The notes under the pieces: generated by a model | What the model saw: the letters and a program-made list of their open reading frames with translations, nothing else | The model's database searches: none | What the model was told of the DNA's origin: nothing | Made by a program: the position numbers and the translations under genes | In this document: piece by piece, positions 6,150-55,077 of the stretch | How the letters are laid out: every line of letters starts with the position of its first letter | Position numbering within the stretch: position 1 is the first letter of the stretch | Origin: a candidate division KSB1 bacterium | GTDB lineage: Bacteria; Zhuqueibacterota; Zhuqueibacteria; Residuimicrobiales; Krinioviventaceae | Direction of reading: 5' to 3' | DNA: 64,000 nt | NCBI GenBank assembly: GCA_034521575.1 | Contig: JAXHMJ010000005.1 | Span: 1,240,001-1,304,000 of the forward strand

Positions 6150-6200
6150 AGCTTCTCCCTGTTATATATAAGCATCATACCCCCGATCCGTTTCTCCGGT

Positions 6201-8384: not shown

Positions 8385-8634
8385 ATGCTTTGGTTTTCCT
8401 GATATAAAAAGGATTGTATCGCCGTTTTTACATGTTTAATATACTAAATAAAACCAATTCAGTAAAAAAAAGCAATGCTCTATGATAATAATTTACAATT
8501 GATGGCATCTAATGACAATATTGTAATGAACTTTAAAAAAAGCATAAACAAGACATTATTAGTCAAAACGCAGGAATAGATATCTTTTGCCGTTCGTTGC
8601 AATAAAAAAGCATAATTTAAACAGGGCAACTGAC

Positions 8635-9637
8635 ATGAAAAAAATTAGATGGGGTGTTCTCGGTACAGCTGATATCGCACGCAAACAGGTGATACCGGCC
8701 ATGCAGAACAGTACAATCACTCAAATACAGGGCATCGCGTCCCGGGATTTACGAAAAGCCCAGGGCGCGGCGCAGGAACTCGACATTCCGAGGGCATTCG
8801 GTTCTTATGAAGAGCTGCTGGCTTTTGAGGAAATTGACGCCGTTTACATTCCCCTGCCCAATCAGTCTGCATATCGAATGGACAGTCAAGAGCTTGCAGG
8901 CGGGTAAACATGTTCTCTGCGAAAAACCCATTGCCATGCATGCCGACGAAGCGCAAACGCTTCTCCAAACCGCTCAAGATTATCCGCATCTCAAGGTAAT
9001 GGAAGCGTTCATGTACCGGTTTCATCCGCAGTGGATTCAGACTTTGGAATGGGTGCGCTCCGGCACTATCGGAGACCTGACCACCATTCAAACCGTGTTC
9101 AGCTATTATAAAGATGACCCGGAAAACATCCGCAACCGGCCGGAAACCGGCGGCGGCGGCCTGATGGATATCGGTTGCTATCCGATTTCAGTCTCAAGAT
9201 TTCTGTTTGAAAGCGAGCCGCAGCGAGTTTTCGGCTGGATGCAGTACGATCCCCTGCTCAAAGTCGACCGCTTGACCTCGGGACTGTTGGAATTTGAAGA
9301 CGGCACGTCCAGCTTTACAGTGAGCACTCAAATGTCAGCCTATCAACGGGTGCTGGTGTTCGGGCGCACCGGCCGTATCGAGGTGCAGATTCCCTTCAAC
9401 GCGCCGCACGACCGGCCGATAATTTTGCTTTTGGAACAGAACGGCAAAATGCACGAAATCACCCTGCCGGCCGCCAATCAATACCAGCTTCAGGGTGACG
9501 CCTTTTCCAATTCCATACTGGAAAACACGCCGGTTCCGACTCGCTTGAACGATGCAGTAAACAATATGCGGGCGATTGACGCTCTGAGAAAAAGTCACGA
9601 AAACGATGCATGGTGTAACCTGAGGACAAGCCAATGA
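8635..9637 (+). pseudogene. Gfo/Idh/MocA oxidoreductase, split by a frameshift
   Basis: The first frame (8635-8863) encodes MKKIRWGVLGTADIARK..., a Rossmann NAD-binding domain, up to IPLPN. The second frame (8864-9637) continues with SLHIEWT and the hallmark EKP motif (HVLCEKPIA) and the C-terminal GFO_IDH_MocA domain. Dropping one base near 8863 restores one reading frame of about 333 codons with no other damage. This is more like a sequencing error than decay. The ATG at 8635 was chosen because homology begins exactly there; the upstream stretch has no SD. It is an NAD(P)-dependent sugar or polyol oxidoreductase, substrate unknown, and overlaps the next gene by ATGA. The 250 bases upstream are the divergent promoter region with the GH3 gene. 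Confidence 0.82.
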
Positions 9638-33843: not shown

Positions 33844-33901
33844 GGGATTGTTTCCTTTACTGCCAGGGGTATTCAAGTACAACGTTGAGACGTTTTTCAA
33901 T

Positions 33902-34123
33902 TTATCTAATATAAGAATTGTGGTTTAGAATTGCACAAACTTTTTCTGAATGGATAGGGAAAAACCGGTTGACTGCATGAAAATTAAAAAGCCTGAATTT
34001 ACCGCAAAAATCGAGGTAATATTGCAGCCACTTTAGAAAAGACGGAATTTTATCAACTGTTATTTTATTATTTTTTAAATATTCAAAATAACGTTTTCTG
34101 ATAGATTCAGAAATATTTTGCAT
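33902..34123 (-). pseudogene. intI: truncated integron integrase (N-terminal fragment)
   Basis: 73 codons from the ATG at 34123, with AGGGGG upstream. Residues 8-42 (IRKRYFEYLKNNKITVDKIP, then FLKWLQYYLDFCGKF) resemble the N-terminal SAM-like domain of integron integrases (the pattern xYLKWLRYYLDFCxKY). After FCGKF the sequence loses the family pattern and the frame stops at 33902. The catalytic domain (R...HxxR...Y) is absent, so it cannot be active. It is oriented away from the cassettes, as intI genes are. Confidence 0.7.
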
Positions 34124-34159
34124 AACGCCCCCTTTTTCCGTTTATCATTACAGTTGCAG

Positions 34160-34180
34160 TGCTAAACGATATGTTTAGCA
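34160..34180. repeat. inverted repeat in the intI-cassette gap
   Basis: TGCTAAAC-GATAT-GTTTAGCA, eight perfect pairs with a five-base loop, 37 bases upstream of the intI start. It could be an operator of intI or part of attI; its CTAAAC/GTTTAG core resembles recombination-site boxes only loosely. Confidence 0.45.
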
Positions 34181-34256
34181 TTCAAGAGTGATAAGAAATT
34201 TATTTGATAAAAGCAATGATTTTTATTGATTTTATAACTAAATTTCAATAGTTTCT

Positions 34257-34284
34257 TTTGAATGCGCATAAGAAACTGTATACT
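34257..34284 (+). promoter_or_regulatory. candidate cassette promoter (Pc)
   Basis: TTTGAA (34257-34262), 16 bases, TATACT (34279-34284), directly upstream of the attI-like core and reading into cassette 1. The match is moderate. Confidence 0.45.
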
Positions 34285-34313
34285 TACTGGTTAGCCATCG
34301 ATAAAGGGATATA

Positions 34314-34850
34314 GTGGTAGATAATAGCCATACTGAACCTCTGAATTCACTTAAACCTCAAGAGATCAAATCCAGGCTTCTGGCAACTAGTATCATTCTA
34401 TCCTCATATGAAATTATAAAATCAATGGTTTTACCGAGAACAAAATTTTCATTTTTAGTCGGTTTTGGATATGGCGGCGACAAATATTCCGATGATTACG
34501 AAAAAGATGTATTAACTCGACACGATAGCCCATTAATAGCAAGTGCAAAATATTTAGCTGAGCATTATGAAGCAATTACGCTTGATGATGTCGATCAGAT
34601 CATAAAAATGAGAGATATGAGAAATCGTATCGCGCATGACCTCCCAACCGTTTTGGTAAAGGAAGAATTCATAGACTTAATTGAATTCGTAAAAAAAGCT
34701 CGTAATTTGGTTTTTAAGCTCGATAATTTTTGGATGTATATCGAAATTGGGCACGACCCGGAGCATCAAGGGACTGACTGGGACACAGCCTATAGCAACG
34801 CAACGATGTTTATTGACCATCTAATTGGGTTAGCCGAAATATATCAGTAG
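34314..34850 (+). CDS. cassette 1 protein, HEPN-like
   Basis: 178 aa from GTG 34314 (AAGGGA upstream). It is all-helical by appearance, with no signal. The segment IIKMRDMRNRIAHDLPTVL (about residues 101-119) has the R-x4-H pattern (RNRIAH) of HEPN domains, many of which are RNases in toxin-antitoxin and defence systems. The rest is not recognised. It fills cassette 1, with its stop six bases before the attC R'' box, a typical cassette arrangement. HEPN nuclease activity is a hypothesis. Confidence 0.6.
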   Translation: MVDNSHTEPLNSLKPQEIKSRLLATSIILSSYEIIKSMVLPRTKFSFLVGFGYGGDKYSDDYEKDVLTRHDSPLIASAKYLAEHYEAITLDDVDQIIKMRDMRNRIAHDLPTVLVKEEFIDLIEFVKKARNLVFKLDNFWMYIEIGHDPEHQGTDWDTAYSNATMFIDHLIGLAEIYQ

Positions 34851-34856
34851 TAAATT

Positions 34857-34915
34857 GGCTAACAAATCACTGGTGCCGACCCAAAAAGCCGGGCGGCACA
34901 GTTCAATCGTTAGGG
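34857..34915 (+). repeat. attC recombination site of cassette 1
   Basis: R'' GGCTAAC (34857-34863) and R' GTTAGGG (34909-34915) flank an imperfect palindrome. CTG-G-TGCCG-A-CCC pairs with GGG-CGGCA-CAG, leaving G and A unpaired on one arm, the extrahelical bases that attC sites use for strand choice. Length 59 bases. Confidence 0.75.
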
Positions 34916-34979
34916 CTGTACAATTCATCAAAGAATTCGAATCATTTTAAAATATTCACACAAAAAAAGGACGTTATCA

Positions 34980-35583
34980 GTGAAGATTATCTCGTTTATT
35001 TCTAGCTCTATTGATGATTGTACAGTTAACACAGAATAAGCTTTTTAGTCAAGACCAAAGTGGGATTATCAAAGGGACTGTTATTAAACTTGAAAGCGGT
35101 GAGAAACTTCCAGGAGCGAACATAATTGTGACTAACACGTTATTTGGGGCATCTTCAAATTCTGATGGAGAATATCAAATCACGGGATTAGATACAGGCA
35201 CATACAACCTTGAATGTAATCTAATTGGTTATAAATCAATTTCAATTACTGATATCCAAGTCAAAGAGGATAAACCAACAGAAATTACTTTTTTGCTCTC
35301 CCCCACCACTCTGGAACATGATGAGATAGTTGTAAGTTTCGAAATGCCTAAGAAAATGCCCAACAAAAATAAGTATGATATTGATCCAGATTTTGCCATT
35401 ATCGTTGATGACTCGATTGATCCAGATATGATAATCGCCGTCGATCCTTCCGTCGATCCCGGTATTTTTTTGAATTCCATCAATCCCACAATGGGAGTAA
35501 AATCAAGCAATGATACATTGAATATAAGGATACTTGATTTAATAAAAGATAAATCAAAATCAAAAAAAGAAAAAGAACACTGA
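34980..35583 (+). pseudogene. cassette 2 protein: secreted carboxypeptidase-regulatory-like domain, frameshifted in the signal peptide
   Basis: GTG 34980 follows AAAAGGA by eight bases, but its frame leaves the coding frame after two codons. One extra base near 34985 joins it to LSRLFLALLMIVQLTQNKLFS, a good signal peptide. The mature part has a CarboxypepD_reg-like beta sandwich (GIIKGTVIKLESGEKLPGANI ... SDGEYQITGLDTGTYNLE, about residues 25-100). An acidic tail with repeated IDPD/VDPS units and a Lys-rich end follow. It is probably exported. Without correcting the frame, translation could begin at TTG/ATG 35011-35014. Confidence 0.6.
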
Positions 35584-35660
35584 AAACCAATGAAGATTTA
35601 TGTGATGCTGCAAATCGAAATAATTTCTTCATTAACTTAATCGATCAAGCAGTAAGGCAG

Positions 35661-35728
35661 CCCTAACGAATAAGCGTTGCATTCGACCTGAACGCAGTGA
35701 AGGTCGATATGCGAACGCGGGGTTGGAC
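35661..35728 (+). repeat. attC recombination site of cassette 2
   Basis: R'' CCCTAAC (35661-35667) and R' GTTGGAC (35722-35728; fits GTTRRRY). Between them GCGTT-GCAT-TCGACC pairs with GGTCGA-T-ATGC-G-AACGC. T and G are extrahelical on one side. Length 68 bases, a typical attC hairpin with a 13-base end loop. Confidence 0.8.
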
Positions 35729-35776
35729 TTGGCCCTGACGACTCGCAGCGAGTTTTAGTAGTGGAGTTGTAAGTTA

Positions 35777-35866
35777 ATGGAATTTACATTTTGGGGAACG
35801 CACTCTACACAACAGTTAAAAACTGTTCAGAAAATATATCTCGGAAAAAATCCCTTAGAAAAATGA
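35777..35866 (+). CDS. tiny reading frame in a possible broken third cassette
   Basis: 29 codons (MEFTFWGTHSTQQLK...) after a weak GGAG, starting 55 bases into what would be a third cassette. No matching third attC (a GTCCAAC box is expected) is seen before the IS91-like remnant, so the cassette would be truncated. A chance frame is equally possible. A 7-bp hairpin (35811-35827) lies inside it. Confidence 0.2.
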   Translation: MEFTFWGTHSTQQLKTVQKIYLGKNPLEK

Positions 35867-35972
35867 ATCGTATCAAATCCTGAGCAAGGTTCAAAACAAG
35901 CTGTAAACAAGGCAAAACTACTGTTTTCTAATATAAAAGACATACGTCACCCATGTCATTGAAAATGATTTT

Positions 35973-36530
35973 TTAAAGTTTTGAGATTGTAAGCCCAATG
36001 TTTGGAGGTCCTCTTCTTTTCGGGATTTCCGCGACAAAAATCAGTGCATGTCCGCAGTCAGGGCATTTCATGATTTTATCGTCTGTGATTAAATCATCAA
36101 TATTTGTTTGTAAACGTTCACCGATCAGTTCTTTGACATATGCCAATTCACCTCGTTTTTTGGTGGCCAATATTCCGAAATAGCGCACTTTTACAAAGCT
36201 TTTTGGAAGAATATGCTGTAAGAACAGATATATGAATTCATTGGCATCCAGTGACCGGGTTTTCACGGTATCTGTTTGAGCATCTTTATAGCGGAATGTT
36301 ACCTTGCCATGTTGTAAGTTTATTATGTTTTTGTCAGAAATGGCTACACGCATGATGTATGGTGCCAAGTATTTAGGGGTGGGATAGATTATTTTGAAAA
36401 GAAAAAGGAAATTAAAAGATATAATCCCACCCCCCTTAAGAGCTGATTGTCCGTTTCCAACTGGTTTGATATGACAAACCCATTTCTTTTTTTGCAATTT
36501 TAGCAGCATCCTTGGCTTCTTTGAAAGCAA
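35973..36530 (-). pseudogene. remnant of an IS91 family transposase
   Basis: The C-terminal part of a Y2-type transposase: KWVCHIKPVGNGQSAL, YLAPYIMRVAISDKNI, EFIYLFLQHILPKSFVKVRYFG and the final zinc-ribbon-like KCPDCGHALI. The N-terminal zinc finger and the HUH/tyrosine motifs are missing, so it is inactive. A short palindromic insertion adds 21 codons between QSALK and YLAPY. The upstream end runs into the integrase remnant near 36505. In FCB bacteria IS91-like genes often sit beside such integrases. Confidence 0.75.
36376..36433. repeat. small palindromic insertion inside the transposase gene
   Basis: GGGGTGGGAT (36376-36385) and ATCCCACCCC (36424-36433) are perfect 10-bp terminal inverted repeats around a 38-base AT-rich centre. 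The translated insert breaks a conserved transposase block, so it arrived after the IS91-like gene. It looks like a miniature, non-autonomous element. Confidence 0.6.
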
Positions 36531-36892
36531 TTTGTATACTTGTCAAAGGAATAGGTTTATCAGTGGTTGGCATAGCGTTTCCACCACGGCCAGGTGCCGG
36601 GAATATCCATTTTGGATTTCGATGTGTTTTGTTGTAGAGGAAGTATTGGCGCAGTTCCTCTTCGGTGATTTGATCAGGTGGTTTTTGGTAATGTGTTGAA
36701 AGTTGAGCAATAGAACGAATGTACATTTCAATTGTTCGTTCCGATTTACCCTGTGAGATATAATATTTTCAAAAATTGAATATCTAAAGCGTTCAACTGA
36801 TTCTGAATAAAATCTATGACGCTAGTCTATCTCACGGGGCAGGTACCTTTGAGTTGCATGTCTTCAGTCATACGTGTACGCCAGTCAGTCAT
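36436..36892 (-). pseudogene. decayed tyrosine recombinase (IS91-associated integrase)
   Basis: From ATG 36892 (GGAGG upstream) it encodes MTDWRTRMTEDMQLKGT, then an insertion stops the frame at TAG. After the insertion it resumes: GKSERTIEMYIRSIAQLSTH ... PDQITEEELRQYFLY, the N-terminal SAM-like domain. It then jumps directly to HRNPKWIFPAPGRGG and TDKPIPLTSIQIAFKEA from the late catalytic domain. More than 100 codons with the first catalytic Arg are deleted, and the final RHxxR/Y part is missing. So there are at least two lesions: an internal deletion and a small insertion. Confidence 0.75.
36749..36839. repeat. second small inverted-repeat insertion, in the integrase gene
   Basis: CCCTGTGAGATA (36749-36760) and TATCTCACGGGG (36828-36839) are 12-bp inverted ends with one mismatch, around 67 AT-rich bases. 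It interrupts the integrase between MQLKG and SERTIEMY, which are contiguous in relatives. Its ends differ from those of the insertion at 36376, so it is another family of miniature element. Confidence 0.6.
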
Positions 36893-36978
36893 CGTGAACC
36901 TCCTTTTAAATAATGTGTTTGTGGTTCACGATGGCTGCAATTTTTAGACAAAAGTGCCCGCCCGTTTTCTGGGCGGGC
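36890..36978. repeat. paired hairpins at the integrase start
   Basis: CATCGTGAACC (36890-36900) and GGTTCACGATG (36923-36933) are a perfect 11-bp inverted repeat that covers the integrase start codon and SD. A second hairpin, GCCCGCCC/GGGCGGGC with a 7-base loop, lies at 36956-36978. They may mark one end of the IS91-like unit or regulate the integrase. Confidence 0.5.
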
Positions 36979-37066
36979 TTGGTTCAACGAGGTGCTGCAC
37001 CGTACTGGCAATTCCGCTGCGCTCCATTCCCGCCGGTGATGGCGGTTATATAAATAAAAACAAAGG

Positions 37067-38642
37067 GTGTCAGGATTGAAACAAAAAAAAATTACTCTCT
37101 CCCAGCTTGAGTCTTTTCTGTTAAAGGCGGCTGATATTTTGCGTGGGAAAATGGATGCTTTGGAGTTTAAGGAATTCATTTTTGGTATGTTGTTTATTAA
37201 ACGTTTGTCTGATGAGTTTGATCGGAAGCGGAAGCAGTTGCGCCATGATACTTTTGCGCATTTGAAGGATCAGCCTGAATTGTTAGAGGAACTGCTTGAG
37301 GATAAAACATCCTATGGTGAGACTTTTTATGTGCCGAAACGTGCCCGGTGGCATGAGACCTGGGTAGATGAGGATGGGAATACGGTTCCCGATTTGTAAT
37401 ATGAATATGATTCTTCATAATATCAGTCGTTTCACCATTGAAAACGGTGATACGCTGGAGGATCCGCAAATACTGGAGAATGGCCAGATTCGTAAATTTG
37501 ACCGTGTGCTTGCTAATCCCCCTTTTTCACAGAATTACAGTCGAGCCGGCATGAAATTTACACATCGCTTTCGGGAGTGGGCGCCTGAGACGGGTAAGAA
37601 AGCCGATCTCATGTTTGTCCAGCACATGCTGGCCAGCCTCAAAAGCAATGGGCACATGGCCACTATTATGCCGCATGGCGTGTTGTTTCGTGGCGGTAAG
37701 GAAAAGCTGATTCGGGAAATATTTATCAATGATGATGTCATCGAGGCGATTATCAGTCTGCCGCAGGGGCTGTTTTACGGAACCGGCATTCCCGCCTGTG
37801 TGCTGGTCTGCAACAAAAACAAACCGGATCAATTGCGAAACACCGTGTTGTTCATTAACGCAGACCGTGAATTTGCCGAGGGTAAGAATCAAAACAAACT
37901 GCGGCCGGAAGACATTGAGAAGATCGACACCGTTTTCACCCAAAAGCTGGAATTCCCAAATACAGCCGGTTGGTAGATACCTCAGAGATTGTTGAAACTG
38001 CACAAGAAAAAGCCGCCTATGAGCCGGATGAAGACGAGAAGGTCAGCGCCACGGTTATCAAAAAGGCGTTGAAGGCGCTCATTGATGATTTGAAGGATAC
38101 GGCCGGCGCATCCGCGAAAAAAGAGCTTGATGAGCTGATAAAACAGGACGCAGCCATCAAATCGATCGAGAAAAAAATCAAAGACGCCAAAGCCGCACTG
38201 AAAGAGAAAACTACCGAACTGATACTGAAACTTGAATTAAAACGTCTGGGCGCTGAAGGGTTTACGGAAGCTGATTCGGAAGGTGGAACAACAGATTGCT
38301 GATCTGGATGCCAACAATAAAGCGGATAAGAGGAAAATCAACGCATTGCAAAAAGACAAGGAAGCTCTTCAGGCACGCATTGACAGAACAGATGCCCTGC
38401 TGGCGGAGATTGGCGGCCAATTGACCGATGAAGAAGCCAAACTTTTAATTTTGAAAAAGCTTTACGACATTGGCGGCCGGGAACTGGAGCGGTATCTGAA
38501 CACGGAAAAACGGGCACTGATTCAGGGAGTTGAAAACCTCTGGAATAAATACGCGATTAGCAGCCGAAAGCTTGAACAGCAGCGGGAAAAGACAATTGAG
38601 GAATTGAACGGGTTTCTGAAAGGATTGGGGTATCTCCGATGA
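37067..38642 (+). pseudogene. hsdM: type I restriction-modification methylase HsdM, decayed
   Basis: The N-terminal HsdM domain (SQLESFLLKAADILRGKMDALEFKEF, from GTG 37067) stops after DGNTVPDL at 37399. The gene resumes from MNMILHNISRF (about 37400) with the NPPF catalytic motif (VLANPPFSQ). The expected block with the SAM-binding motif DPTCGSGG, about 100 or more codons, is missing. Further single-base shifts occur near 37955 (EFPNTAGW against KYSRLVDTSEI) and near 38270, and the coiled-coil C-terminus runs to 38642. Without motif I it cannot methylate. No hsdR is in the window. Confidence 0.82.
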
Positions 38643-39166
38643 AAGCCTTTGAAAATATTATTCTCCCGAGAGTCGGTGAACTTCGCATGGGTGAAACGAT
38701 CATTGAGAAGGACTGCACAGGTGAGGGATTACCGATCTATTCAGCAGATAAAAGCAACCGTCCTTGGGCATATTCAACACATTTCAAGCGCCTAAACCAA
38801 CCCGGGACAATCGTTATTGGGGCGAGAGGTACAATTGGCTACCCGAGACTTCCGAAAGAAGCAGCATTTGGTGCAACTCAAACTACGATTACGCTCAAAC
38901 CAGATTCAGAAAGCTTTGTGCCAAAGTTCGTTTATTACGCCCTTCAACAACTCGACTTTTCGGTTCTTGGTGCTCAGCAGGCGATACCGATGCTCACAGT
39001 CGGCAATTTGGAAACGGTCACTATTCCCTGGTTCCCCAAACCCGAAAAATCCAAAGTCATTTCCACGGTTGATCAGGCCATTGAGCAGACGGAAAGCCTG
39101 ATTGCCAAGCAGCAGCGTGATTCCGACACAAAACAAAGTTTCGTGAGCAATGACGTGCCAAAATGA
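38639..39166 (+). pseudogene. hsdS: HsdS specificity subunit, single-TRD truncated form
   Basis: 175 aa, starting with ATGA overlap on hsdM. One target-recognition domain is visible (GLPIYSADKSNRPWAYSTHF ... GTIVIGARGTIGYPRL ... AIPMLTVGNLETVTIPWFP), then a conserved helix EKSKVISTVDQAIEQTESLIAKQQR. Full HsdS has two TRDs (about 400 aa). Here the sequence ends soon after one, with SFVSNDVPK unlike the family. Half-size HsdS proteins do exist, but with the damaged hsdM and absent hsdR this is best seen as a remnant. Confidence 0.75.
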
Positions 39167-39293
39167 TTTTTTTGGCCCGAGAGGGTGTAGAGATGATGCC
39201 CGGACAGGATTAAAAGTCAATGCAGAAATCCTGAGAATAAAAATATTGATCTTTCGTAACGGCGCCATTGTTCTCAAGAATACCCCTAAACAG

Positions 39294-41608: not shown

Positions 41609-44425
41609 GTGCAGAACATCAATTACAACTTTATACCATTCACAGCATCGGTCATCGACTCCGCAGTCCAGACCCGGTCAGCAGATCAGTCCTTGCTTGT
41701 TTTCCCGTCTGAAAGCAGTAAAATGGCGGGCTTGCGGCGCTACCAGACCGAATGGAATTTCGAGCGGGTCCGGTTTCTGAGCATGGAAGAGCTGAAAAAT
41801 GAGTTGTTCCACAGCGACCGGCCGATTCTCAAAGAGGAAAAACGCACGCTGGCATTTTATTCATGCCTGACAGATAAAGATAAGGATTTTTTTAAAATAT
41901 CCAACTATTTCCAGTCCATTGACACCGCTCTCAAGTTTTTTTCGCTCTGGGAAGAACTGAACGAAGAGTTGACCAACATGCCGCAAATCCTCGAACAGCT
42001 TGAAGCGTCGGGACTGATGCTCAGCGAGTGGCAACTCCAAATGCTGAACAAACTCGAGGAATTGCTGCAGCGATATCAAGCGTTCATCACGTTGAAAGGA
42101 TATTCGGATACTATTTTTCAATACCATCCGGCTCAACTGGACCCTGAACCTATACGGGATATCCGCCAGATCACGTTTGTGAATCAGTATTATTACACCC
42201 GACTCGAACGCAGCATGATCGAGCAGCTGCTTGGACACAACTATGCGGTCACTCTGATTTATCAGCTTCCGGAAAACTTGCTGGACAAAGAGACCCTGAG
42301 CGTCAAGCCATTCAGTCTGCGCGACCTCCAGGGGCAGACACAAACGATCCGCATTTACGAATGCCGGGATGCGTTCAGCATGTTTCTCACCCTGGTGCGC
42401 GAGGTCCGGCAAACCGGAATACGGCACGTTATCGATCAATCGCGCTTGTCCCAGACCTTTTCCCGCTACTGCTCACCGCGTCACTACCGGGTGGGTCAGT
42501 ATCAATCGGTTCAGGAAACCCCGGTGTATCCCTTTTTGCATACGCTGCATACCTTACTGGATGGTCTGATGTTCGAACCGCAACGAAAAAAAATCCTGCT
42601 GCCGCTGCAGCTGATCTTGCAGGCGCTGCAGGACTCTGCATTCTATGCGTATTTTGCTCCCCCGCCCACGCAGCAAGCTGTTCTGGAGATGTGCTATGAG
42701 GCCATCGACAAGGATTATCATTATCTGGATGTAGACGGCGACTGTCTGCAGGAACGTATGTTTCAAAATACTGACCTCACCGTATTGACAAATCTGTTCT
42801 CACTGTTGAAACGGTTTTTCAGTGTGCAGTCCATTCAGAATTTCATCGATCTCATTGACACGCCGGATGGACTCGAGATCAGCCGATTGACGGATAACCC
42901 GGAGGAACGCGAATTATTCTACAGAACCCTGGCTGATTTTGCATCCATCGAACGCATCAAGCTGATTGATGACTGGCAAACTCTGTTCCGATCCACTGAC
43001 ACGCGCCTGCCTGTGGTTCCGACGGGAATGTTGCGGCTCTTTCTCGATTATCTGGCCCCCAAACGGGTGCGCCGACAAATGGATGTGGACAGCAAACGCA
43101 CGGACTTTACCAGTTTGCTGGACACCCGTAACCTGCAGTATTCCGCCCTGGCGGTGTTCAATCTGGTTGAAGGAGAGCTGCCGCACGCCCCCAGCACACC
43201 GTTTCTGTTTACCGAGCAGCAGCGTCAGATCATCGGATTAAAGACATTCGAGGATATTCAGCAGCGGGAAAAATATTATTTTATGCGTCTTGTTCTCACC
43301 ACTCCCGAACTGGTTCTCTTGACCCGCAAAGACAGTGAAAACAACATCGAGCCCAGTTCATTCCTCGAACAAATCAGGCTCTATGCGCCGGTAACCCTTG
43401 TCCAGGCGGAACCGTTCCGAAACATGATCCCGGCCTATCATGCTCTGCTGAAAACCGATATGACATTTGCTGTCGATTCTGATGTGACCCGAATGCGCTC
43501 CTTTTTCAGCATTCCGCATGATCCGCAGCAGGATACGCGCACCCTGCAACTGAGCACTTATGCGCTCATTGATCTGCTGGACAATCCTTTTACGTTCTAC
43601 CTCAAACGCATCGGCCGACTCCAGGATCGCAAGCGTCGTGTTGAAAACGAAATATCGCATCGGATTTTGGGCAATATGGTGCACAACGTACTCAACCGCA
43701 TCTGGTTCAGTCTTTTGGACCGCGGCATGGCGGGAGAACCTCTGACTTTTGATTTCAGTCACATTGACACGGATTTGATCCGGCGGTATATTAAAAAAGA
43801 ACTGAAAGACAGCCGTTACTACTACAAATCGCCGCACAATTACACCTCGTTGTACCTGGAGCGCATTGTCAGCCGCTTTATCGAGAACGGGATCACGGCA
43901 TTCTTTCGCGAACTGGATAAACGCGGTTTCAGCGGTCAGCCGCTGCACATTTATCCGGAACAGGATGTTCCCACCGTGGGTGACACACAAAAACAGTGGA
44001 TTTGGGCGAACGAGCATCGATTGAATTTCGATATCTTTATAAACGCCAGGGCTGATCTGCGTATCGAGAATGAGCGCACCACGATTATTGATTACAAAAC
44101 AGGGTCGGAACAAAATGCCCATCGTGAGCAGCTGTGGCTGTACGAGTTGTATTATCTGCTGCTGGACTATCCGGATAGAGCCGAACACGTGCAGTCGTTT
44201 TTTTATTTTGTGTTCAAACAAAATTCGAAAGACTATCCCGGCCAGGAGAATGCCGCGCGACTGAAAGCTGAACTGATTCAGAAATTGAATGACGTTTATT
44301 ACAACGGCTATTGCCTTCCGGAGCAAAAATCCAAAATTTCTCAATTTGAAGATATTGCCCGTAAAGACATCTTTGGCTCCCGGCAATTTACTAAAGAACA
44401 GAACATGAAAGAAATCTATGAATAA
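41609..44425 (+). CDS. AddB-like PD-(D/E)XK nuclease of double-strand break repair
   Basis: 938 aa. The C-terminal 250 residues hold a RecB-type nuclease domain: STYALIDLLDNPFTFYLKRI, HRILGNMVHNVLN, then ARADLRIENERTTIIDYKTGS with the catalytic Asp ... D-x-K. The N-terminal two thirds look like the inactive helicase fold of AddB/RexB-type subunits; no Walker A motif is visible. It would act with the AddA-like helicase-nuclease encoded at 50817-47496 to resect DNA ends. Length fits (AddB about 1000). No frameshift. Confidence 0.82.
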   Translation: MQNINYNFIPFTASVIDSAVQTRSADQSLLVFPSESSKMAGLRRYQTEWNFERVRFLSMEELKNELFHSDRPILKEEKRTLAFYSCLTDKDKDFFKISNYFQSIDTALKFFSLWEELNEELTNMPQILEQLEASGLMLSEWQLQMLNKLEELLQRYQAFITLKGYSDTIFQYHPAQLDPEPIRDIRQITFVNQYYYTRLERSMIEQLLGHNYAVTLIYQLPENLLDKETLSVKPFSLRDLQGQTQTIRIYECRDAFSMFLTLVREVRQTGIRHVIDQSRLSQTFSRYCSPRHYRVGQYQSVQETPVYPFLHTLHTLLDGLMFEPQRKKILLPLQLILQALQDSAFYAYFAPPPTQQAVLEMCYEAIDKDYHYLDVDGDCLQERMFQNTDLTVLTNLFSLLKRFFSVQSIQNFIDLIDTPDGLEISRLTDNPEERELFYRTLADFASIERIKLIDDWQTLFRSTDTRLPVVPTGMLRLFLDYLAPKRVRRQMDVDSKRTDFTSLLDTRNLQYSALAVFNLVEGELPHAPSTPFLFTEQQRQIIGLKTFEDIQQREKYYFMRLVLTTPELVLLTRKDSENNIEPSSFLEQIRLYAPVTLVQAEPFRNMIPAYHALLKTDMTFAVDSDVTRMRSFFSIPHDPQQDTRTLQLSTYALIDLLDNPFTFYLKRIGRLQDRKRRVENEISHRILGNMVHNVLNRIWFSLLDRGMAGEPLTFDFSHIDTDLIRRYIKKELKDSRYYYKSPHNYTSLYLERIVSRFIENGITAFFRELDKRGFSGQPLHIYPEQDVPTVGDTQKQWIWANEHRLNFDIFINARADLRIENERTTIIDYKTGSEQNAHREQLWLYELYYLLLDYPDRAEHVQSFFYFVFKQNSKDYPGQENAARLKAELIQKLNDVYYNGYCLPEQKSKISQFEDIARKDIFGSRQFTKEQNMKEIYE

Positions 44426-44918
44426 AAAGACAAAACAAACCGAATATCTCGACCATCCCAGGCCTTCGACGTTGTATATTTTAATGCTGCTCACCGTTCT
44501 GATCATTTTGTGCATTCCGTTTCTGGCGGTTTCGTTTATGATCAATTCAAGCGTGCGGCTGTATCTGTTCCCGTTTCTCATTCTGGTCTTTGCGATATTC
44601 GGAATTTTTCTTCACGCCGCCTTTAGCACTGTTTATAAATTTAAAAATAAAAAGCTGTACATCCGCTGCGGTATTTTTTTCACACGCATCCCGCTTGCCG
44701 ACATTCAACGCATTCACAAAAAACGTTTTATTCCGCGAATTACCGGATGGAACTCGAGATCTATAAAAGGATTTAACAACAGATTTGCCAACGGATTGCT
44801 GATTTTGACGCAAAATCGACAGGTATATATCAGTCCCACACAGCCGAAAGAGTTTACATTGTCCCTGCAGGTCTATAACGGAAAGCCGTTTCCCTATACC
44901 ACATTTACCAGTGATTGA
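44418..44918 (+). CDS. PH-domain membrane protein (YdbS/YdbT-like)
   Basis: 166 aa, overlapping the AddB-like gene by eight bases. Two hydrophobic helices (LYILMLLTVLIILCIPFLAV and LFPFLILVFAIFGIFLHAAF) precede a bacterial PH domain (YKFKNKKLYIRCGIFFTRIPLADIQRI ... LLILTQNRQVYISPTQPKEFTLSL). Such proteins sit in the cytoplasmic membrane; function unknown. Confidence 0.75.
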   Translation: MNKKTKQTEYLDHPRPSTLYILMLLTVLIILCIPFLAVSFMINSSVRLYLFPFLILVFAIFGIFLHAAFSTVYKFKNKKLYIRCGIFFTRIPLADIQRIHKKRFIPRITGWNSRSIKGFNNRFANGLLILTQNRQVYISPTQPKEFTLSLQVYNGKPFPYTTFTSD

Positions 44919-44929
44919 CGAGGATTGCC

Positions 44930-46125
44930 ATGTTACACTCACTCCGACAAAAAGTATATATGAAATCCGCGCGGCTTCGCGGCGTCTTTTACGTACTGAT
45001 TATCGCCTGTATCATCGGCATTGTTTTGTACACCCAGCAGTTGGTCTCTGAACTGCGCAGTGAATCACGCGATATTGTCGAGTTTTACGCCAACACCATT
45101 CAGCGCGTCGCCTCGAATCCTATGAACTCGGAAGCCCTGGGCTGGGTCTTTGAAAACATCACGCAACGCACCAACTTTCCGCTCATCCTCACCACAGCTG
45201 AAAAGGAACCGTCCTCATGGAAAGGCCTGGCCATAGAGGAAACTGACCATTCCACAGAGACCCTCGATAAAGTCAGACGGATGATGAAAAAGATGGGACA
45301 GGAAAATGATCCCGTCCCGATAAAGTACAACGGCCGGGTGATCAATTATCTGTATTACGGAGATTCCAAACACATCACCCGGCTGTCGCATTTGCCTTAT
45401 ATCACGCTGGCATCGATGGGATTGCTGGTGTTGCTGGCCTTTGTCGGGTTTCAGAGCATCAAGCAGAGCGAGCAGCGGTTTATCTGGGTGGGCATGGCCA
45501 AAGAAACAGCGCATCAGCTGGGAACCCGATTTCTTCGTTACTGGGATGGCTGGAACTCTTGCGCTCGCAGGCGCCAAAAGATACAGCCGTGATCGCCACA
45601 GTCGATGACATGCGCCAGGACGTCACACGGTTGGAAAAAATCGCCTCACGTTTTTCACAAATCGGCTCACAGCCTGCGTTAAAAATCCAGAGTCTGAATC
45701 CGCTTTTGGAAGATATTTAGCGCTACTTTGACCGGCGATTGCCACAATCGGGAAAATCGATCTCGATCGAATACGATTGCAAAGAACTGCCGCCGGTGCC
45801 GATCAATCGCGACCTGTTTGAATGGGCGGTGGAAAATTTGATCAAAAACGCCATTGATGCGGTTCAGCGCAAGCAGGGGCATATCGGCATTTCCTGCGGT
45901 GTCCTGGATGATGAACGCGTTTATCTTGATATCAAAGACAACGGCAGCGGCATTCACGCCAAATTCAAATATGACATTTTTAAACCCGGTTACAGCACTA
46001 AAAAACGCGGCTGGGGTCTGGGACTTAATCTGGCCAAGCGCATTATTGAAGAATACCACCACGGTGAACTGCTGATTCGGGACTCGCATCCAAACCGCGG
46101 CACCACGATGCGTATTATCATTTAA
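44930..46125 (+). pseudogene. sensor histidine kinase with one frameshift and one internal TAG
   Basis: Start ATG 44930 after GAGGA. Two membrane helices (VLIIACIIGIVLYTQ and LASMGLLVLLAFVGFQ) enclose a small periplasmic sensor. The H-box AKETAHQLGT is followed by a frame change: one C is missing in the run at 45525-45527, after which PISSLLGWLELLRSQ continues. An in-frame TAG at 45718-45720 (LLEDI-stop-RYFDRR) follows. Then come the N-box ENLIKNAIDAV, DNGSGI, and GWGLGLNLAKRI. The restored kinase is about 398 aa. No response regulator is adjacent. Confidence 0.82.
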
Positions 46126-47495: not shown

Positions 47496-50400
47496 TCATT
47501 CGATCATGACATATTCGGTTTCGATGCGATAGTTGTTCTGCTTCACCTGAGGCAGGGCCGCCACAGCCGCTTTGTAGCGGTCCAGCTGGTCTACTTCACT
47601 CACCGCGCCGGTTTTAAAATCAATGATCCGGATGATTTTTTTCTCTGTATTGACCATCAGACGGTCAATACGCAGTTCGGCGCCGTCCGGCGCGTACAGA
47701 GTACATTCGGTAAACACGCGGCTGTCAAAATCCTGAAACAGTCGGGGATGCGCGCCGACGAACCGTTCGGTCCGATTTAGCTGATCATTCAACTCTTTTA
47801 GAGGGACCAGACTGCCGTAATACTCGCTGGTTTTTTCGCGCGCATACCGGCGCTGCGAATCCGTGTCCTGACGGATGAATGATAAATAATAATGAATAAT
47901 ATTGCCTTTTTCCGCGCTGCGGTGGTCTACAAACGCGGTTTTCAGATCGACATGCCGGATGCGCTGCCGCAATTCCTGATCCGGGACGCGATAGTCTGCA
48001 TGGTTCATATCCAGAACATTATCCAGAATAGTATCCTGGACCGATTCCGCTTCGGTTTCCACCGGCAGTTCAGGCGGCAGTATCTGTCCGGATTGCCCGA
48101 CAATCTTTGTATCCGATTCATCCCGTTGTAAAGCGCCGGCATCTTTAAAATAGCGCACGACAGCCGCAGCCGTGTCCCATGATGGTTTCGGTTTGGGCTT
48201 TTCATTTGATTTGGGCCTGGGTTTGCTAAAGCCGTCTTTATTCTTAAAAGTCAATCCCAGGAACAAATTCTCTCTGGCGCGCGTCATGGCCACGTACAAT
48301 ACATTCAATTCTTCTATCGCTTCACGACGAATTTTCTCATCCTCCAAAGGCGCAAAACGGGATGTCGTTTCCACAATTCCCTTGTAATTGTGGGTGATAA
48401 AAAAATTACGCGTGCGCAGTGTTTCCGGATCAAGGTCATACAATGTATGAATATCAAGACTGCCCGATGGCGTGCGCGGCGACAGCTCCCAATACAGAAA
48501 CACCGAATCGAATTCCAGGCCTTTGGATTTGTGAACCGTCATCAGCTCGATTGCGTTCATTTCCGCGGTCGCGACCTGTTGCAGAGACTCTCTGTCTTTC
48601 TTGTCCTCACACCAGGTTGTAAATCCCTGCAGGGTGATGGGAACCTGTCGACTGCTGTTCATAAACTCAGTGGTAATCTCGACAAAGCGGTTGATATTCT
48701 TGAGATCACTTTGCAGCGGGAACAGCTGCGTCACATTGTAATGTTCCAGTATGCATTTGACGACATACAATGGGTCCGTCTGCCGGCTTAGCTTGGAAAA
48801 CAATTGCAATGCTTTACGGACCGCCGGTATATCCTCACACCGCTGCATCAATTCGTTTAAAAACAGCCTGTCCCCGGCCTGCAGTCCGCGGTCCAAAAGC
48901 GTTTTCAGGTCCATCGTATCCAACAACACATAATCGGAGCGCAGAAACTCGCATAAATCAAAGACATCCTGAAACACCAGCAGTTTCAAGAATTTCATCA
49001 GCGGCTTGATCGCCCGATGCTCGAAAATCGGATTCGACGACTTGTGTACATAGGGAACCTGCAGCTCATCCAGAATCCGGGCGATATGTTCCAGTTGTTT
49101 ATTCTGGCGCACAAGCACAGCCGATCGAGAAGGATCGATTTCGCCGGTTTGTATACGGCGGTAAATCATAGTTTCAACAAATTCCCTAGTCGCCGTATAA
49201 TCATTGATCTCATGCTCATTATCGCCGACGGCGGACAAATTGCGCAGCCACAATTCGATATATCCCTGACCATTTTTGCGATGCGGTTGCACGCATTCAT
49301 ACGGCCAGTCAATATCGAAATCCGTCAGAGCGGCATGCAGCATCTCATCGGAATAGACCTGATTGATAAAGTCGATGATGCGTTCATCGCTGCGAAATGA
49401 AGTCCTCAGCTGCTGTTGATCGCTGTCCACTGAACAGACGCGGCATGCTCAACAGCAGATCGCGCTCACCGCCGCGCCAGCCGTAAATGGCCTGCTTTTC
49501 GTCTCCCACCACGATGACGCCTCCGTATTCCTTGATGCCGGCGCCGCTGATCACTTCGCGGATGATGGGCATTAAAATCCGAAACTGGATCAGACTGGTA
49601 TCCTGAAACTCGTCGATCAGCATAAACCGGTATTTGGCGGTCAGGTGCTCGTAAAAATCATTGGTCACCGTATCATCGGTAACCATGGACAGTTCAGGAT
49701 CGTAGAGAAATCGATACGTATAGAATGAAATATCCGAGTGGGAAAACACCCGATTTCTCAGGGTAAGCTCGTCATATTCCCGGAGGATTTTCCGGATCAA
49801 TTCGCGGATTTCCCGTTCTTCCGGAACCGCCAGCATCCAAAGCAGATACTCTGCAAGAGATGCAACAAATTCCTGATGCGCTGATAAAAAATGATCTTTG
49901 GCTTCTGCGTATTTGTTTGCTCTAAACACTTTGCCACCGTTCCAGAACGGATCAAACAGCAGATGGCCTTTCTGCTCGAGATGATCACGATCCTCCACCG
50001 CCTGCAAACACTCGTCAGATAGATGTTCGAGGGGGGTATCGGGTTCAATATTGAAAAAGTCTTTTGCATTTTTTTTTAACAAGGCATTGATCCGCGCATC
50101 CGCATGAAATTTCAGCACGTGCTGCTGGAACTCGATGAGCAGGGTTTTTAGCTGTTGACGAACAGCTTGATACAGGGCGTCTGCTTTCGGCGGCGTGTGT
50201 TCAAAATCGCGAGCCCCGGATTCGTCGATCATGTGATACAGCCAGCGCTGCTTGATGGTGGTGTTGAGAAATTGCTCATAAGCCTGGATGGTCTTGCGTT
50301 CTCCGCGTTCCAGGAACGACCGAAACACTTCCCAGAGCTCGCTGTCGTTCAGCAGCATATGAAACAGGTTGTCTTTGACCGCATCGTCCATGACATTATC

Positions 50401-50817
50401 GATCTCGTGATCGTAAATATGCAGAAACGGTGCGATAATTGATTTGAACACCGTATTGGTGAACGAATCAATGGTCATGATCTTCACCTGGTGCTTGTTG
50501 CTCAGCATATCATGATAGCTCCGGCGCAGAAAATGCAGATCATCGCGGCTCAGAGATCGACCGAGAACACTTTCGAGGTTCCGACGCAGCTCTTCACTTT
50601 CACCTTTGGGATTCACCAGTTCATTCAGATGCGTAAAAATACGATCCCGGATCTCTGCCGTGGCTTTGCGGGTAAAAGTGATCACCAGTATTTCTTTGTA
50701 TTGACAGCCCAGATGCCGGTACTGACACAACAGGGACAGGTATTCAAGAGACAATCGATAGGTTTTACCGGTTCCGGCGCTGGCGCGGATGACACGTTTG
50801 ATGAAATTTTGTTGCAT
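47496..50817 (-). pseudogene. AddA-like UvrD helicase-nuclease, frameshifted
   Basis: The first frame (50817-49384) has Walker A in RASAGTGKTYRLSLEYL, ILVITFTRKATAEIR, MLIDEFQDTS and VGDEKQAIYGWRGG. It breaks after SMPRLFSG. One extra base at 49431 joins VDSDQQQLRTSFRSDE in the second frame. That frame carries motifs IV-VI (MTVHKSKGLEFD, LYVAMTRARENL) and the C-terminal nuclease ELRIDRLM ... IIRIIDFKTG, ending at 47496. The restored protein is about 1106 aa, normal for AddA/RecB. It works with the AddB-like subunit from the other strand. A sequencing error is likely since all motifs are intact. Confidence 0.88.
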
Positions 50818-50870: not shown

Positions 50871-51385
50871 TTAAAATTCTCTGTTGATAAAATAGGAAAA
50901 AGATTTATTTCTTATTTGGGCTATTTCAATAGAATAGTTTTTGAGCAACTCTACCATAAAATCAATTCTGGAATCAAAGCTATTTGGTATTTGCTGATTA
51001 AATTGTTCTTTTGTCAGATCATTTGTGTCTTTGAACGGTTTTATTTTGAGTTGTCTTTGTTTTTTCTCGGCTAATCCGGCCAAATACCAACTCTCGATTT
51101 CTTTGATCACAACTTGTATCCTGCCCTGATCAAGATTCCTGTATTTTTGAGCCAATTTTTGCTTCTTTGCAGTTACGCAGGGAGTAGAATTTATATCACA
51201 GATAAAATAATACTCGTCATCCATCGACTTGATTTTATAAAATTCTCGATCCATTTTTTGTTTTTGGATGCATAATGCAAAATCTGTACATCATAGTTTT
51301 TATTTAAAAGTGGTTTTACTATTCTCGCAACAAATCTCTCATCATCCGGACCTTCGACAAACAAATACATCAGTGTTTTGGACAT
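50871..51385 (-). pseudogene. TOPRIM-like / DUF4276-like small protein, frameshifted in an A-run
   Basis: The first frame opens MSKTLMYLFVEGPDDERFVARIV, with an acidic VEGxxDE motif like the first TOPRIM strand. One A is missing in the run at 51254-51259 (T6 on the plus strand). After it the next frame continues FYKIKSMDDEYYFICDINS (acidic second motif) and IKEIESWYLAGL, reminiscent of the (R)ELEAWxLAD block of DUF4276. The whole is about 171 aa. It starts three bases after the AAA ATPase gene's stop. ATPase plus TOPRIM partners occur in OLD-like and PARIS-type defence systems; a nuclease role here is inference. Confidence 0.6.
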
Positions 51386-51387
51386 GT

Positions 51388-52632
51388 TTATCCCCCAAGC
51401 AAATTTTGAATATAAAGCTCTTCAACTCCGATTTCATTCTTTAAAAATGTTTTGACCTGCTGTTGATCTGCGGGACGCGTGATTTGAGAAAACCCGTCTG
51501 CATCCCGGGAAACCAGCAACAACGAGTCCAGATCAGCATGGCGTACCATTTCGGTATTGTGGGTTGTGGCAATAATTTGTTTTTGCTTCGAGGCATCCTT
51601 CATCATCTCCGCAACTTTGGCGATGAGATGCGGATGAATATTGCGTTCCGGTTCTTCGATAATGGCCAGGGGTTTGTTTTCAAAATATAACGCCACAATC
51701 AAGGCTGTGATATTGATTGTCCCGTCCGAAACCAGCGAGACGGGAATGGATTGGTCCGAGTACGTTTCCTGCAGTTTGAAAATCAATTTGTCGGCAGATT
51801 TCTCCACACTTAGATCCGAAATAAACGGCAACAGATCATTGACCAGATTGTACAATTTACGCCGCTTTGCATTGTTTTCTGTAAGGTGTTTAAGAATGAT
51901 GGACAGGTTGCTGCCGTCTTCTTCCAGCTCTGCCTTGCCTGTTATGGGAGTGGCCTTTTTGGGGAGTTTGGGATCAAAATCATAAATGGAGATTCTTTGA
52001 AAAACATTTTTAATAAAAGATAGAGAAAGGTAAGAATTTTGGATAAGTAGCTCATGCGAATCCAATGCATTTCTATTTAAATATGAAAGTAAAATATCAT
52101 TTTTTTTGATATTTACTTCATCTGGTTTATTTATATCTATTGATATGTCATTATAGGTACGAAGAATTTTTATATTTCCAGAGCCAAGAGATTTAAGTGG
52201 TTTTACACTATTATTTTCCAAGTATACTTGTTCATATTCAACTGTGTGGTTCAATAATTCATTTTTAATAACAAAATCACTGTTTTTATTAAAAGATATT
52301 GATAATTCATAAATAGTTTTATTAATAAAGACCTCGGTGAAATAATCACCGGAAGCATTAAACAATGAACTTGAATCTTCATCACTTTCAATTCTAAGCA
52401 CAAACTCATTTGATTCTGCGGACGTAATATTGCGTAAATACTCTGCCCCACCTTGTGCTGATATCGCATTCTCCAAACCATCTTTTGCAATATCATGTAA
52501 AAACTTAAAAATCTGCACAAAATTCGATTTCCCCGCCGCATTGGCGCCAATGATCAAATTCATATTTCCGAGCTCGAGTTCCAGATTCTTAAAGCTCTTG
52601 AAATTTTTCACACTGATCTTTTTAATGCTCAT
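51388..52632 (-). CDS. AAA15/OLD-like ABC-type ATPase
   Basis: 414 aa. Walker A is IIGANAAGKSNFVQIFKFL (residues 27-45), the signature region SLVSDGTINITALIVALYF, Walker B LAIIEEPERNIHP, and the switch histidine ATTHNTEMV. It is of the SMC/RecF-like AAA_15/AAA_21 type found in OLD, PARIS and retron systems. No nuclease domain is fused; the small TOPRIM-like gene directly downstream may supply it. The middle section (codons 60-220) is AT-richer than the neighbouring genes, a possible sign of transfer. Confidence 0.85.
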   Translation of the reverse strand: MSIKKISVKNFKSFKNLELELGNMNLIIGANAAGKSNFVQIFKFLHDIAKDGLENAISAQGGAEYLRNITSAESNEFVLRIESDEDSSSLFNASGDYFTEVFINKTIYELSISFNKNSDFVIKNELLNHTVEYEQVYLENNSVKPLKSLGSGNIKILRTYNDISIDINKPDEVNIKKNDILLSYLNRNALDSHELLIQNSYLSLSFIKNVFQRISIYDFDPKLPKKATPITGKAELEEDGSNLSIILKHLTENNAKRRKLYNLVNDLLPFISDLSVEKSADKLIFKLQETYSDQSIPVSLVSDGTINITALIVALYFENKPLAIIEEPERNIHPHLIAKVAEMMKDASKQKQIIATTHNTEMVRHADLDSLLLVSRDADGFSQITRPADQQQVKTFLKNEIGVEELYIQNLLGG

Positions 52633-52812: not shown

Positions 52813-55077
52813 TTATTTTTCAGCCATTAATTTTTTACGTATCCGGGACACCCCGGGCGCAGCGGCCCCGACCAGCAGTGCCAGCAATGCCGCGCCACTG
52901 ATCCAGAGTCCGGTGACGAACGACAGGGGTTGATAGAGAAACTCAATTCGGTGTTCGCCGGGCTGCATAAACACGGATTTCAGACAAACATTGGTTCTAT
53001 AGCTTTTCACCCGCTGACCATCAATAAAAGCGCGCCAACCCCGCGGATAATAATTCTCACTGATTACCAGACAGGACGGCTGGTCCACAAAAACGTCCAT
53101 CTGATAACGACAAGCATCCCGCCGATGCCAGGTGATATGGATACTGTCCGGCGGATGCACAGCCAACGGCGGCGGTTCGAATAACAGCGCGGTTACTGCT
53201 GGATTAAAATTCGCGCTTTTCATGCTATCCAACGCAGCCTTACTATCAGACACCACCATCACGGTATCGCTGAAAAAGGCAAACGGCAGCGCCGTTGTAT
53301 TGCGGTAGACAAATGGACTCTTTTTATTCAGCAATTTATAACGCGCATCCTGAATGCGCAACGCTGAAATGATCGTTCCCACGTTAAACATATCCATACA
53401 GGCATAATCCAGAACAAGCCGTGCCGGCATAACCTGCTGCGCCGGGACCGGCTGTTCCAGCACATCTCCCTGACGAAAAACAGTGCGGTAATATTTGGCC
53501 AAAAAAGGATTGCGTATCCAGGGACGGTCCGGCAGATGATAACCGGTTTCCCTGAGGATTTCATAATAATGTTGCAGACAGTTGCCGCCCCCGCCGGTGA
53601 TGTTCAGTCTTGCAGACGCTGCAGACGCGTGAGAGTTAAAAACACGTTTATTCGTATCCTCCCTTTTAGAGACAGCGGCGGGTTCCGCCTGATTCGAATG
53701 CAGGGCATTTAAACTCTCAAAATTCACCCAGGTAAAATCCGCAACAAGCAAAAACAGCACCAGTCCGCTCCATAGATACAGATTCATTCGTCTTGCATTG
53801 CTGACCAGAATCGCAATGACCGCAAACAGAAACAGATGCAGCGCCCACTCTTCCAGTATCTGATAATACAATACTGTTTTCTGGTTTAGCTGCAACAATC
53901 CAAAAAATTGAATAAATGCATCATAAAGCTGCGACCGGAAAACAAGCAGCGCCGAAAACAAGAGGACAAACAGCATCCCCCAGATAACGGCATAGGATTT
54001 AAAAACCGACTGATTTTTATCTCGCGGAGCCAAAACCGCATCCAGTCCCAACACACTGCCGGCGAGAAACACCAGAGGCAAAGCGACAATGGCGATCATC
54101 GAATGATCTGTAAACAGCAGCCCCACACAAAGCAGCAGCCCCGCAGCCACGGCGAATCCTGCTTTTTTATATTTGGGGAGCATCAGGCCGAAAAAATAAA
54201 GCAGCCCTCCGGTGTAAAGCAGGGGCAATGAAAAATGTGGATGCGTACTTTGCGTCAAAGAAGGCAGCAGTACACTGACGATCTGTAGCGGAAGCACAGT
54301 CAGTTTCTCATGCAACGGTACGGCGGCGCCCACATATTCAAGCACCGGCAGCCAGGTATAAGCGGACAGCAGCAACGCACTCAGAAACAAGGCCGGAACA
54401 AGGACAAGTTTTCCCAGCAATCGCACCAGCGGCAGTTTTTTAAATAATCCCATAGCAACAGTCAGAAACAAGGCGGACCACAGGGTCACAATGATGACAG
54501 GCACACTGCCGCGCTGCAGCAGAACCGCCAGCGCCAGAGTACAGACGGCAAAGGACCACGGACGCAGATGGCTGAACAATCGGTACAGACAAACAAGAAA
54601 CAAAGGCAATAGCGATACGGCCAACAGATGACGCCCGTATTCAATTCCGCTCATTAATAAAAATCCGGGCAGGTTGTAAGCAAGCAAGGCAGTTATGAGC
54701 ACGGCCAGGGGATGCAGATTAACACGCCGGCCCAGCATGTAAATCCCGGCGGCAAACAGTAAAAAATTCAAGAGAATATAGAGGAGATAGATATTGACAA
54801 AACCGGACAGCGGCGTGAGCAGAGAATAAAGCAAGGCATCAGGAATGCTCAATGAAGCGATGCCGTTGGTGTCGCTGTAAACCGGAAGCCCCATAAAGGC
54901 ATCCGGATTCCACAGGTCTACAGCATCCCGTCCCTGAAACAAAATTTCCGTAAAAATGCGATCCGGCTCCGGCGACCAGCCAAACGCCTGGAACACCGCA
55001 TAAAATCCTGAGAGAATCAATATGGACAGCAGAAAAAATACAAGCCACAGCCAGCCATCACGATGATTCGGCATCAT
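52813..55077 (-). CDS. YfhO-like multi-pass membrane protein
   Basis: 754 aa with about 12 or more hydrophobic helices through residue 460, then an extracytoplasmic domain and a last pair of helices. The C-terminal block NYYPRGWRAFIDGQRVKSYR, then QPGEHRIEFLYQP, is a hallmark of YfhO family proteins, which resemble GT-C glycosyltransferases and may add sugars to lipids or polymers outside the membrane. It is the last gene of the polysaccharide operon, starting 20 bases inside the acetyltransferase gene. Confidence 0.8.
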   Translation of the reverse strand: MMPNHRDGWLWLVFFLLSILILSGFYAVFQAFGWSPEPDRIFTEILFQGRDAVDLWNPDAFMGLPVYSDTNGIASLSIPDALLYSLLTPLSGFVNIYLLYILLNFLLFAAGIYMLGRRVNLHPLAVLITALLAYNLPGFLLMSGIEYGRHLLAVSLLPLFLVCLYRLFSHLRPWSFAVCTLALAVLLQRGSVPVIIVTLWSALFLTVAMGLFKKLPLVRLLGKLVLVPALFLSALLLSAYTWLPVLEYVGAAVPLHEKLTVLPLQIVSVLLPSLTQSTHPHFSLPLLYTGGLLYFFGLMLPKYKKAGFAVAAGLLLCVGLLFTDHSMIAIVALPLVFLAGSVLGLDAVLAPRDKNQSVFKSYAVIWGMLFVLLFSALLVFRSQLYDAFIQFFGLLQLNQKTVLYYQILEEWALHLFLFAVIAILVSNARRMNLYLWSGLVLFLLVADFTWVNFESLNALHSNQAEPAAVSKREDTNKRVFNSHASAASARLNITGGGGNCLQHYYEILRETGYHLPDRPWIRNPFLAKYYRTVFRQGDVLEQPVPAQQVMPARLVLDYACMDMFNVGTIISALRIQDARYKLLNKKSPFVYRNTTALPFAFFSDTVMVVSDSKAALDSMKSANFNPAVTALLFEPPPLAVHPPDSIHITWHRRDACRYQMDVFVDQPSCLVISENYYPRGWRAFIDGQRVKSYRTNVCLKSVFMQPGEHRIEFLYQPLSFVTGLWISGAALLALLVGAAAPGVSRIRKKLMAEK

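Follow-up and report, generated by a model that had tools for sequence, protein, structure and literature searches.

Pairs of an OLD-type ABC ATPase and a separately encoded TOPRIM protein (TOPRIM-linked OLD-ABC pairs) are described as a recurrent kind, with PARIS among them, in an excerpt of PMC12839542. In PARIS, according to an excerpt of PMC12409363, a hexamer of AriA sequesters inactive AriB, the released AriB cuts tRNA, and the system senses Ocr-like triggers. A further candidate of similar layout, HEC-01, is modelled in PADLOC; the abbreviation HEC denotes Hma-embedded candidates, as PMC12988326 explains. A literature search that reached few subscription papers returned no description of HEC-01 and none of DUF4276, a Pfam label that attaches to some of the small proteins considered below. 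Krishnan 2020, as cited in such papers, reportedly deals with ABC ATPases.

The window, by which we mean the whole stretch of 64,000 nucleotides analysed here, contains a gene pair of this layout on its minus strand. The first gene, taken from the ORF list, encodes an ABC/OLD-type ATPase of 414 aa (52632..51388, minus), and the ATG of its smaller TOPRIM partner lies at 51385. The partner ends at 50871, and an AddA/RecB-like helicase-nuclease gene, a neighbour that we place outside the system, starts at 50817 and extends to 47496 on the same strand. The coordinates thus bear out the sequence-only reading, which had the ATPase stop and the partner start two bases apart and the pair 53 bases upstream of an AddA-like gene. 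Both genes of the pair are AT-rich, with a GC content of 0.32 for the partner and 0.37 for the ATPase, compared with 0.49 for the AddA-like gene and 0.50 for the next gene upstream. No convincing flanking repeats that would mark an insertion site were found around the pair, and promoter-like and terminator-like sites occurred near the level of shuffled sequence (7 against a shuffle mean of 8.2, and 3 against 1.7, respectively). Because the upstream gene (52813-55077) does not adjoin addA in the loci of relatives, no empty site could be demonstrated.

The partner is present as the sequence-only reading had it, but not as one ORF, a point which that reading had overlooked. Frame 0 from 51385 encodes the N-terminal third (LFVEGPDDERF...), and the rest lies in another frame; the first piece carries the conserved TOPRIM glutamate (VEGPDDE) and the second the CDIN and KEIESW motifs. 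A profile built from alignment A1, which comprises 18 intact homologues, matches the two as overlapping pieces in different frames: positions 1-59 of the profile fall on 51212..51385 (minus; E 2e-13), and positions 42-171 fall on a 127-aa ORF at 50871..51254 (minus; E 4.3e-49). The frame shifts between 51241 and 51212, where the window has 29 nt against 11 codons in 16 of the 18 homologues. The AddA-like gene, for which the spacing had been given correctly, had likewise been taken as whole; it is split near 49384-49430 into one ORF at 50817..49384 and another, in a different frame, at 49430..47496. Of the listed relatives that match it strongly, most have it as a single open frame of more than 1,000 aa. 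The assembly also breaks rpoB into two pieces in different frames, and rpoC is likewise split across frames; since both genes are indispensable to a living cell, the assembly must carry coding indels. The breaks in the partner and in the AddA-like gene are therefore probably assembly indels as well, and split genes in this assembly are no evidence of pseudogenes, a reading of the partner that we did not adopt. A programmed frameshift was set aside because the 18 intact homologues need none.

Several other features of the assembly were recorded alongside. The rpoB and rpoC breaks lie within 104997-109131 of contig C3 in this genome (G000), and a histidine-kinase gene at 44915-46125 of the window also looks broken. 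At 33900-39170 the window is AT-rich (GC 0.35-0.40 at 34-36.5 kb) and then holds fragments from a Type I restriction-modification locus, an N6 methylase and a specificity subunit, which are also frame-broken; no restriction subunit was recognised among the ORFs listed.

The ATPase matched the Pfam families AAA_21 (3.6e-26) and AAA_15 (8.2e-21), and its best PADLOC match was to the HEC-01A models (1.8e-51). Across the 24 close homologues aligned in A2, the residues around G29-S36, SDGT at 302-305, EE at 326-327 and H358 are conserved, which we take to be the Walker A motif, the signature, the Walker B motif and the switch histidine, respectively. A structural model of the protein (pLDDT 87) matched the ABC-ATPase heads of SMC, Rad50 and retron PtuA with Z of about 19-22, and the second best row in a Foldseek search was an OLD nuclease; the A2 profile matched PDB chains of PtuA, GajA, OLD, SMC and AriA. 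Residues 73-213 (51994..52416, minus) stand apart from the remainder of the protein, with a pairwise identity of 0.27 against 0.63. This region of the model is rich in long β-strands (76-94, 97-114, 120-139 and 142-159), and it accounts for the observation, made earlier from the letters, that the ATPase gene is AT-richer in its middle, the GC content being 0.27 for residues 73-160 and 0.23 for residues 161-213, whereas other parts of the gene have 0.39-0.45. We take this insert to be a candidate surface that probably senses phage. To our knowledge, no sensor role has yet been reported for an insert of such a kind in OLD ATPases.

The fold and acidic residues of the partner were assessed on intact homologues. 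When the model of one of these (L029; 178 aa, pLDDT 90.6) was compared by VIA-align, the top 14 rows were without exception TOPRIM regions from GajA or OLD, with Z from 7.8 to 6.4 (middling by the tool's own scale, being below 8), rmsd of 4.5-5.1 and 147-157 of the 178 residues superimposed; the next row scored 5.7. The rows did not include AriB or other TOPRIM proteins, and this absence does not count as exclusion. The four best Foldseek matches of the same model were C-terminal regions of OLD (E about 0.006-0.012). All 18 partners share five invariant acidic residues (E11, D15, D66, E98 and E100), and position 68 is either D or N, with N in half of them. This block of related structures, together with the invariant acidic residues, supports the assignment of the partner as a putative TOPRIM nuclease, and the TOPRIM fold on which the sequence-only reading had hung its case was found with both structure-comparison tools. 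Sequence profiles were less uniform. Pfam OLD-like_TOPRIM was matched, weakly, by 14 of the 18 partners at E<=1 and the HEC-01B model by all 18 at E<=0.1; among solved structures, a sequence search with the partner returned nothing beyond two weak, unrelated rows. The earlier label of TOPRIM/DUF4276-like can thus be kept in its first half, its second being a weak one: at E<=1, DUF4276 was matched by 8 of the 18, the best value being 2.9e-6, and Pfam found no DUF4276 in the two pieces of the window's partner.

We then asked how widely the pair occurs. The 39 loci collected from named genomes comprised 21 full-length members of the window's clade, 2 cut by contig ends (L072 and L079) and 16 distant ones (L080-L095); the 21, together with two loci (L028 and L029) from the class to which the window belongs and the window itself, form a clade set of 24. 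An intact partner lies directly downstream of the ATPase in 19 of the 23 other members, one of which (L068) was left out of A1, and this retention takes the pairing far beyond chance. In a further locus (L058) the partner runs off the contig, and in three the partner is lost or damaged while the ATPase is intact (a remnant in L028, truncated in L060 and absent in L074). The spacing between the two genes ranged from -44 to +9 nt in the 20 loci made up of the 19 with an intact partner and L058. In a tree of 46 ATPases the 24 clade members grouped together with support of 99/90 and in 98% of 200 bootstrap trees, the bootstrap being rough by the tool's own note; several outgroup rows, including the plasmid locus L118, end in long branches, which makes their exact placing unsure. 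Clade members come from 11 named phyla of bacteria and archaea, the archaeal ones (7 of 24 ATPases) including Heimdallarchaeota and Methanoperedens. Across 82 genomes of the window's phylum, a search with the partner found it adjoining the ATPase in the window and in G046, and as a remnant beside the ATPase in G040, so that 3 of the 82 carry the pair, one of them as a remnant; G053 gave a distant partner match, with no ATPase within the 2.2 kb stretch. Viral contigs scanned with either the ATPase or the partner yielded the same single contig (IMGVR_UViG_3300011829_000020), on which the two genes are adjacent. This copy (4986-6778), 37% identical, has an SSB-like gene on one side and other phage-type genes on the other, the gene names being our own reading. 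The conserved pairing that the earlier reading had anticipated was therefore found in cellular genomes and on a viral contig. Judged from these sequences, the cassette was acquired by horizontal transfer, given a well-supported clade of mixed phyla, its occurrence in 3 of 82 genomes and its low GC content.

By our reading of the ORFs, clade members mostly stand alone among apparent housekeeping genes, and when 10 suspicious neighbours were chosen for a scan, one strong match was taken as specific, a PifA-like gene in L078. The helicase of L106 matches DpdJ strongly and reads as a general Lhr-type helicase. In L068, a second OLD/AriA-like ATPase followed by a 158-aa ORF lies just downstream of the pair (7232-8952); the 158-aa ORF had no PADLOC match.

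From the pair itself, its ATPase motifs, the TOPRIM fold and acidic residues, the conserved pairing, the scattered distribution and the one phage copy, all read from sequence or models, we consider it likely that the locus is a cassette of two genes, for an OLD-type ATPase and a TOPRIM partner, that acts against phages (or mobile elements) and works like PARIS. By analogy, the ABC ATPase would be the sensor and would keep the small TOPRIM nuclease inactive by sequestration; a trigger made by the phage, probably met by the variable β-rich insert, would free or activate the nuclease, which could then cut nucleic acid as its substrate and stop the infected cell. Counting against a defence cassette are the housekeeping-type neighbours, the middling Z of the partner (<8) and the N at position 68 in half of the partners. 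A further point against it is that one OLD-family protein, Cran1, is reported as not a defence protein in an excerpt of PMC12796447.

The same excerpt has Cran1, an archaeal OLD protein, acting in the cell cycle (PMC12796447), and an ABC-ATPase/TOPRIM pair with a housekeeping task in DNA repair or chromosome maintenance would suit both the ordinary genes that often flank the pair and an ATPase fold equally close to the heads of SMC and Rad50. A housekeeping function accords poorly, however, with a pair so sparsely distributed within its phylum, with a clade that mixes bacteria and archaea and includes a phage-borne copy, and with the 3 of the 23 other loci in which the ATPase is still open but the partner has been lost or broken; we regard it as unlikely. 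Somewhat less probable again is a toxin-antitoxin or addiction module in which the TOPRIM nuclease is the toxin and the ATPase its inhibitor, without phage sensing. The coupled two-gene layout would fit such a module, as would the sequestration of inactive AriB by the AriA hexamer (PMC12409363, in excerpt) and the ATPases found without an intact partner in those 3 loci, and gene order alone cannot separate this arrangement from one with a sensor; a large ATPase with a fast-changing insert would, however, not obviously be needed by a pure inhibitor.

The sequence-only reading had gone further and suggested that the pair might be linked to the adjacent AddA-like nuclease. In that case it would guard or work with AddAB and sense an attack on the nuclease, by analogy with P2 OLD and its link to RecBC; P2 Old kills recBC mutant cells, according to an excerpt of PMC10568477, and the shared strand and 53-base distance in the window speak for such a link. 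The neighbourhoods of other loci argue otherwise. The earlier reading had proposed to check whether an ATPase-TOPRIM-AddA neighbourhood is conserved; ATPase and TOPRIM recur together, but no AddA adjoins them in the 23 other loci of the clade, as far as the stretches compared extend. The L061 locus has a weak UvrD-type match (E 6e-5) about 4 kb from the pair. In the loci of relatives, addA lies directly beside addB, without the pair, in 11 of 11. The window's AddA-like gene is 41-52% identical to the addA of these relatives, has no second strong match in its genome and scores better with the RecB-like/AddA model than with GajB. Its addB, a 938-aa ORF at 41609..44425 on the plus strand and likewise a neighbour outside the system, is parted from the minus-strand addA by several genes. 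Either addA moved in the source genome or the region is misassembled, and the pair stands at the 5' side of addA by chance; the juxtaposition thus follows from the parting of addA from addB and looks like an incidental coincidence of one genome. The clade of 24 also includes seven archaeal ATPases, and AddAB would not be expected in archaea. We therefore rejected the guard of AddA as very improbable. Weaker still, and scarcely credible, is a split Gabija system with the pair as GajA in two pieces and the adjacent UvrD-type gene as GajB: the TOPRIM model does match GajA, and the UvrD half matches PADLOC GajB models at 1e-21, but that gene is the host's own addA and no UvrD gene follows the pair in other clade loci.

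With this attractive but unsupported AddAB link removed, what remains is a defined and testable group of bacterial and archaeal proteins, with alignments of 24 ATPases and of 18 intact partners, in which the invariant residues can be targeted for mutation and the mapped variable insert can be exchanged.

Among the known systems, Gabija GajA and the class 1-2 OLD nucleases share with the pair an ABC ATPase core and the OLD-type TOPRIM fold, including its helical part, and they are the best structural matches of the partner. They are single-chain proteins, however, and Gabija has a GajB helicase alongside; the genes here are split, and pairs of the window's type lack such a helicase in other loci. 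The ATPase is also similar to AbiLi (1e-29) and to MAD3 of MADS, whose mad4 is matched by 8 of the 18 partners; its NCBIfam score of 132 bits is far under the MAD3 cut-off of 420 bits, which leaves it outside MADS. PARIS (AriA/AriB, class 4 OLD) resembles the pair in having ATPase and TOPRIM effector as separate adjacent genes and in the conserved acidic residues of TOPRIM, but it is not the best-matching family for either protein: the AriA model gave 3.7e-26 for the window's ATPase against 1.8e-51 with HEC-01A, and the AriB model matched 8 of 18 partners against 18 of 18 with HEC-01B. DUF4435, presumably AriB's Pfam label, was found in 3 of the 18.

The closest family is HEC-01, with the same order of an ATPase and then a small TOPRIM/DUF4276-like protein, the best PADLOC match for both proteins and profile similarity over nearly the whole ATPase; the proximity of the pair to known or candidate defence families, as first proposed, is thus upheld. 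Three plasmid pairs that are HEC-01 by score served for comparison, and their ATPases are 24-26% identical to that of the window. One, on E. coli S30 plasmid C (L118 3480-5164; NZ_CP010234.1), belongs to a BREX-1 operon, where pglX and pglZ flank it; one is on a mobilizable plasmid and one is beside SNF2, WYL and methyltransferase genes. We count these surroundings in favour of a defence cassette. The L118 genes are annotated merely as an AAA family ATPase and a hypothetical protein. With HEC-01A the window's ATPase scored 173 bits against 482-604 for the plasmid ATPases, and with HEC-01B the best E among the 18 clade partners was 2.4e-11 (L029: 28.9 bits) against 263-330 bits for the plasmid partners; the window's clade is separate in the tree (99/90) and, by our reading, its members mostly stand alone rather than in defence operons.

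The two-gene TOPRIM-linked OLD-ABC kind is defined by an ABC ATPase that carries the Walker A, signature and Walker B motifs and stands beside a TOPRIM protein, and by its sequences and models the pair belongs to this already known kind, within a divergent branch of which little has been described. Tentatively, and as a single reading that we hold possible without favouring it, the clade might be a lineage of split OLD immune systems that is sister to HEC-01 and not within it: a compact, mostly solitary cassette traded among bacteria, archaea and phages, in which a TOPRIM of about 175 residues would be a minimal effector and trigger specificity would change through the fast-evolving β-sheet insert of the ATPase.
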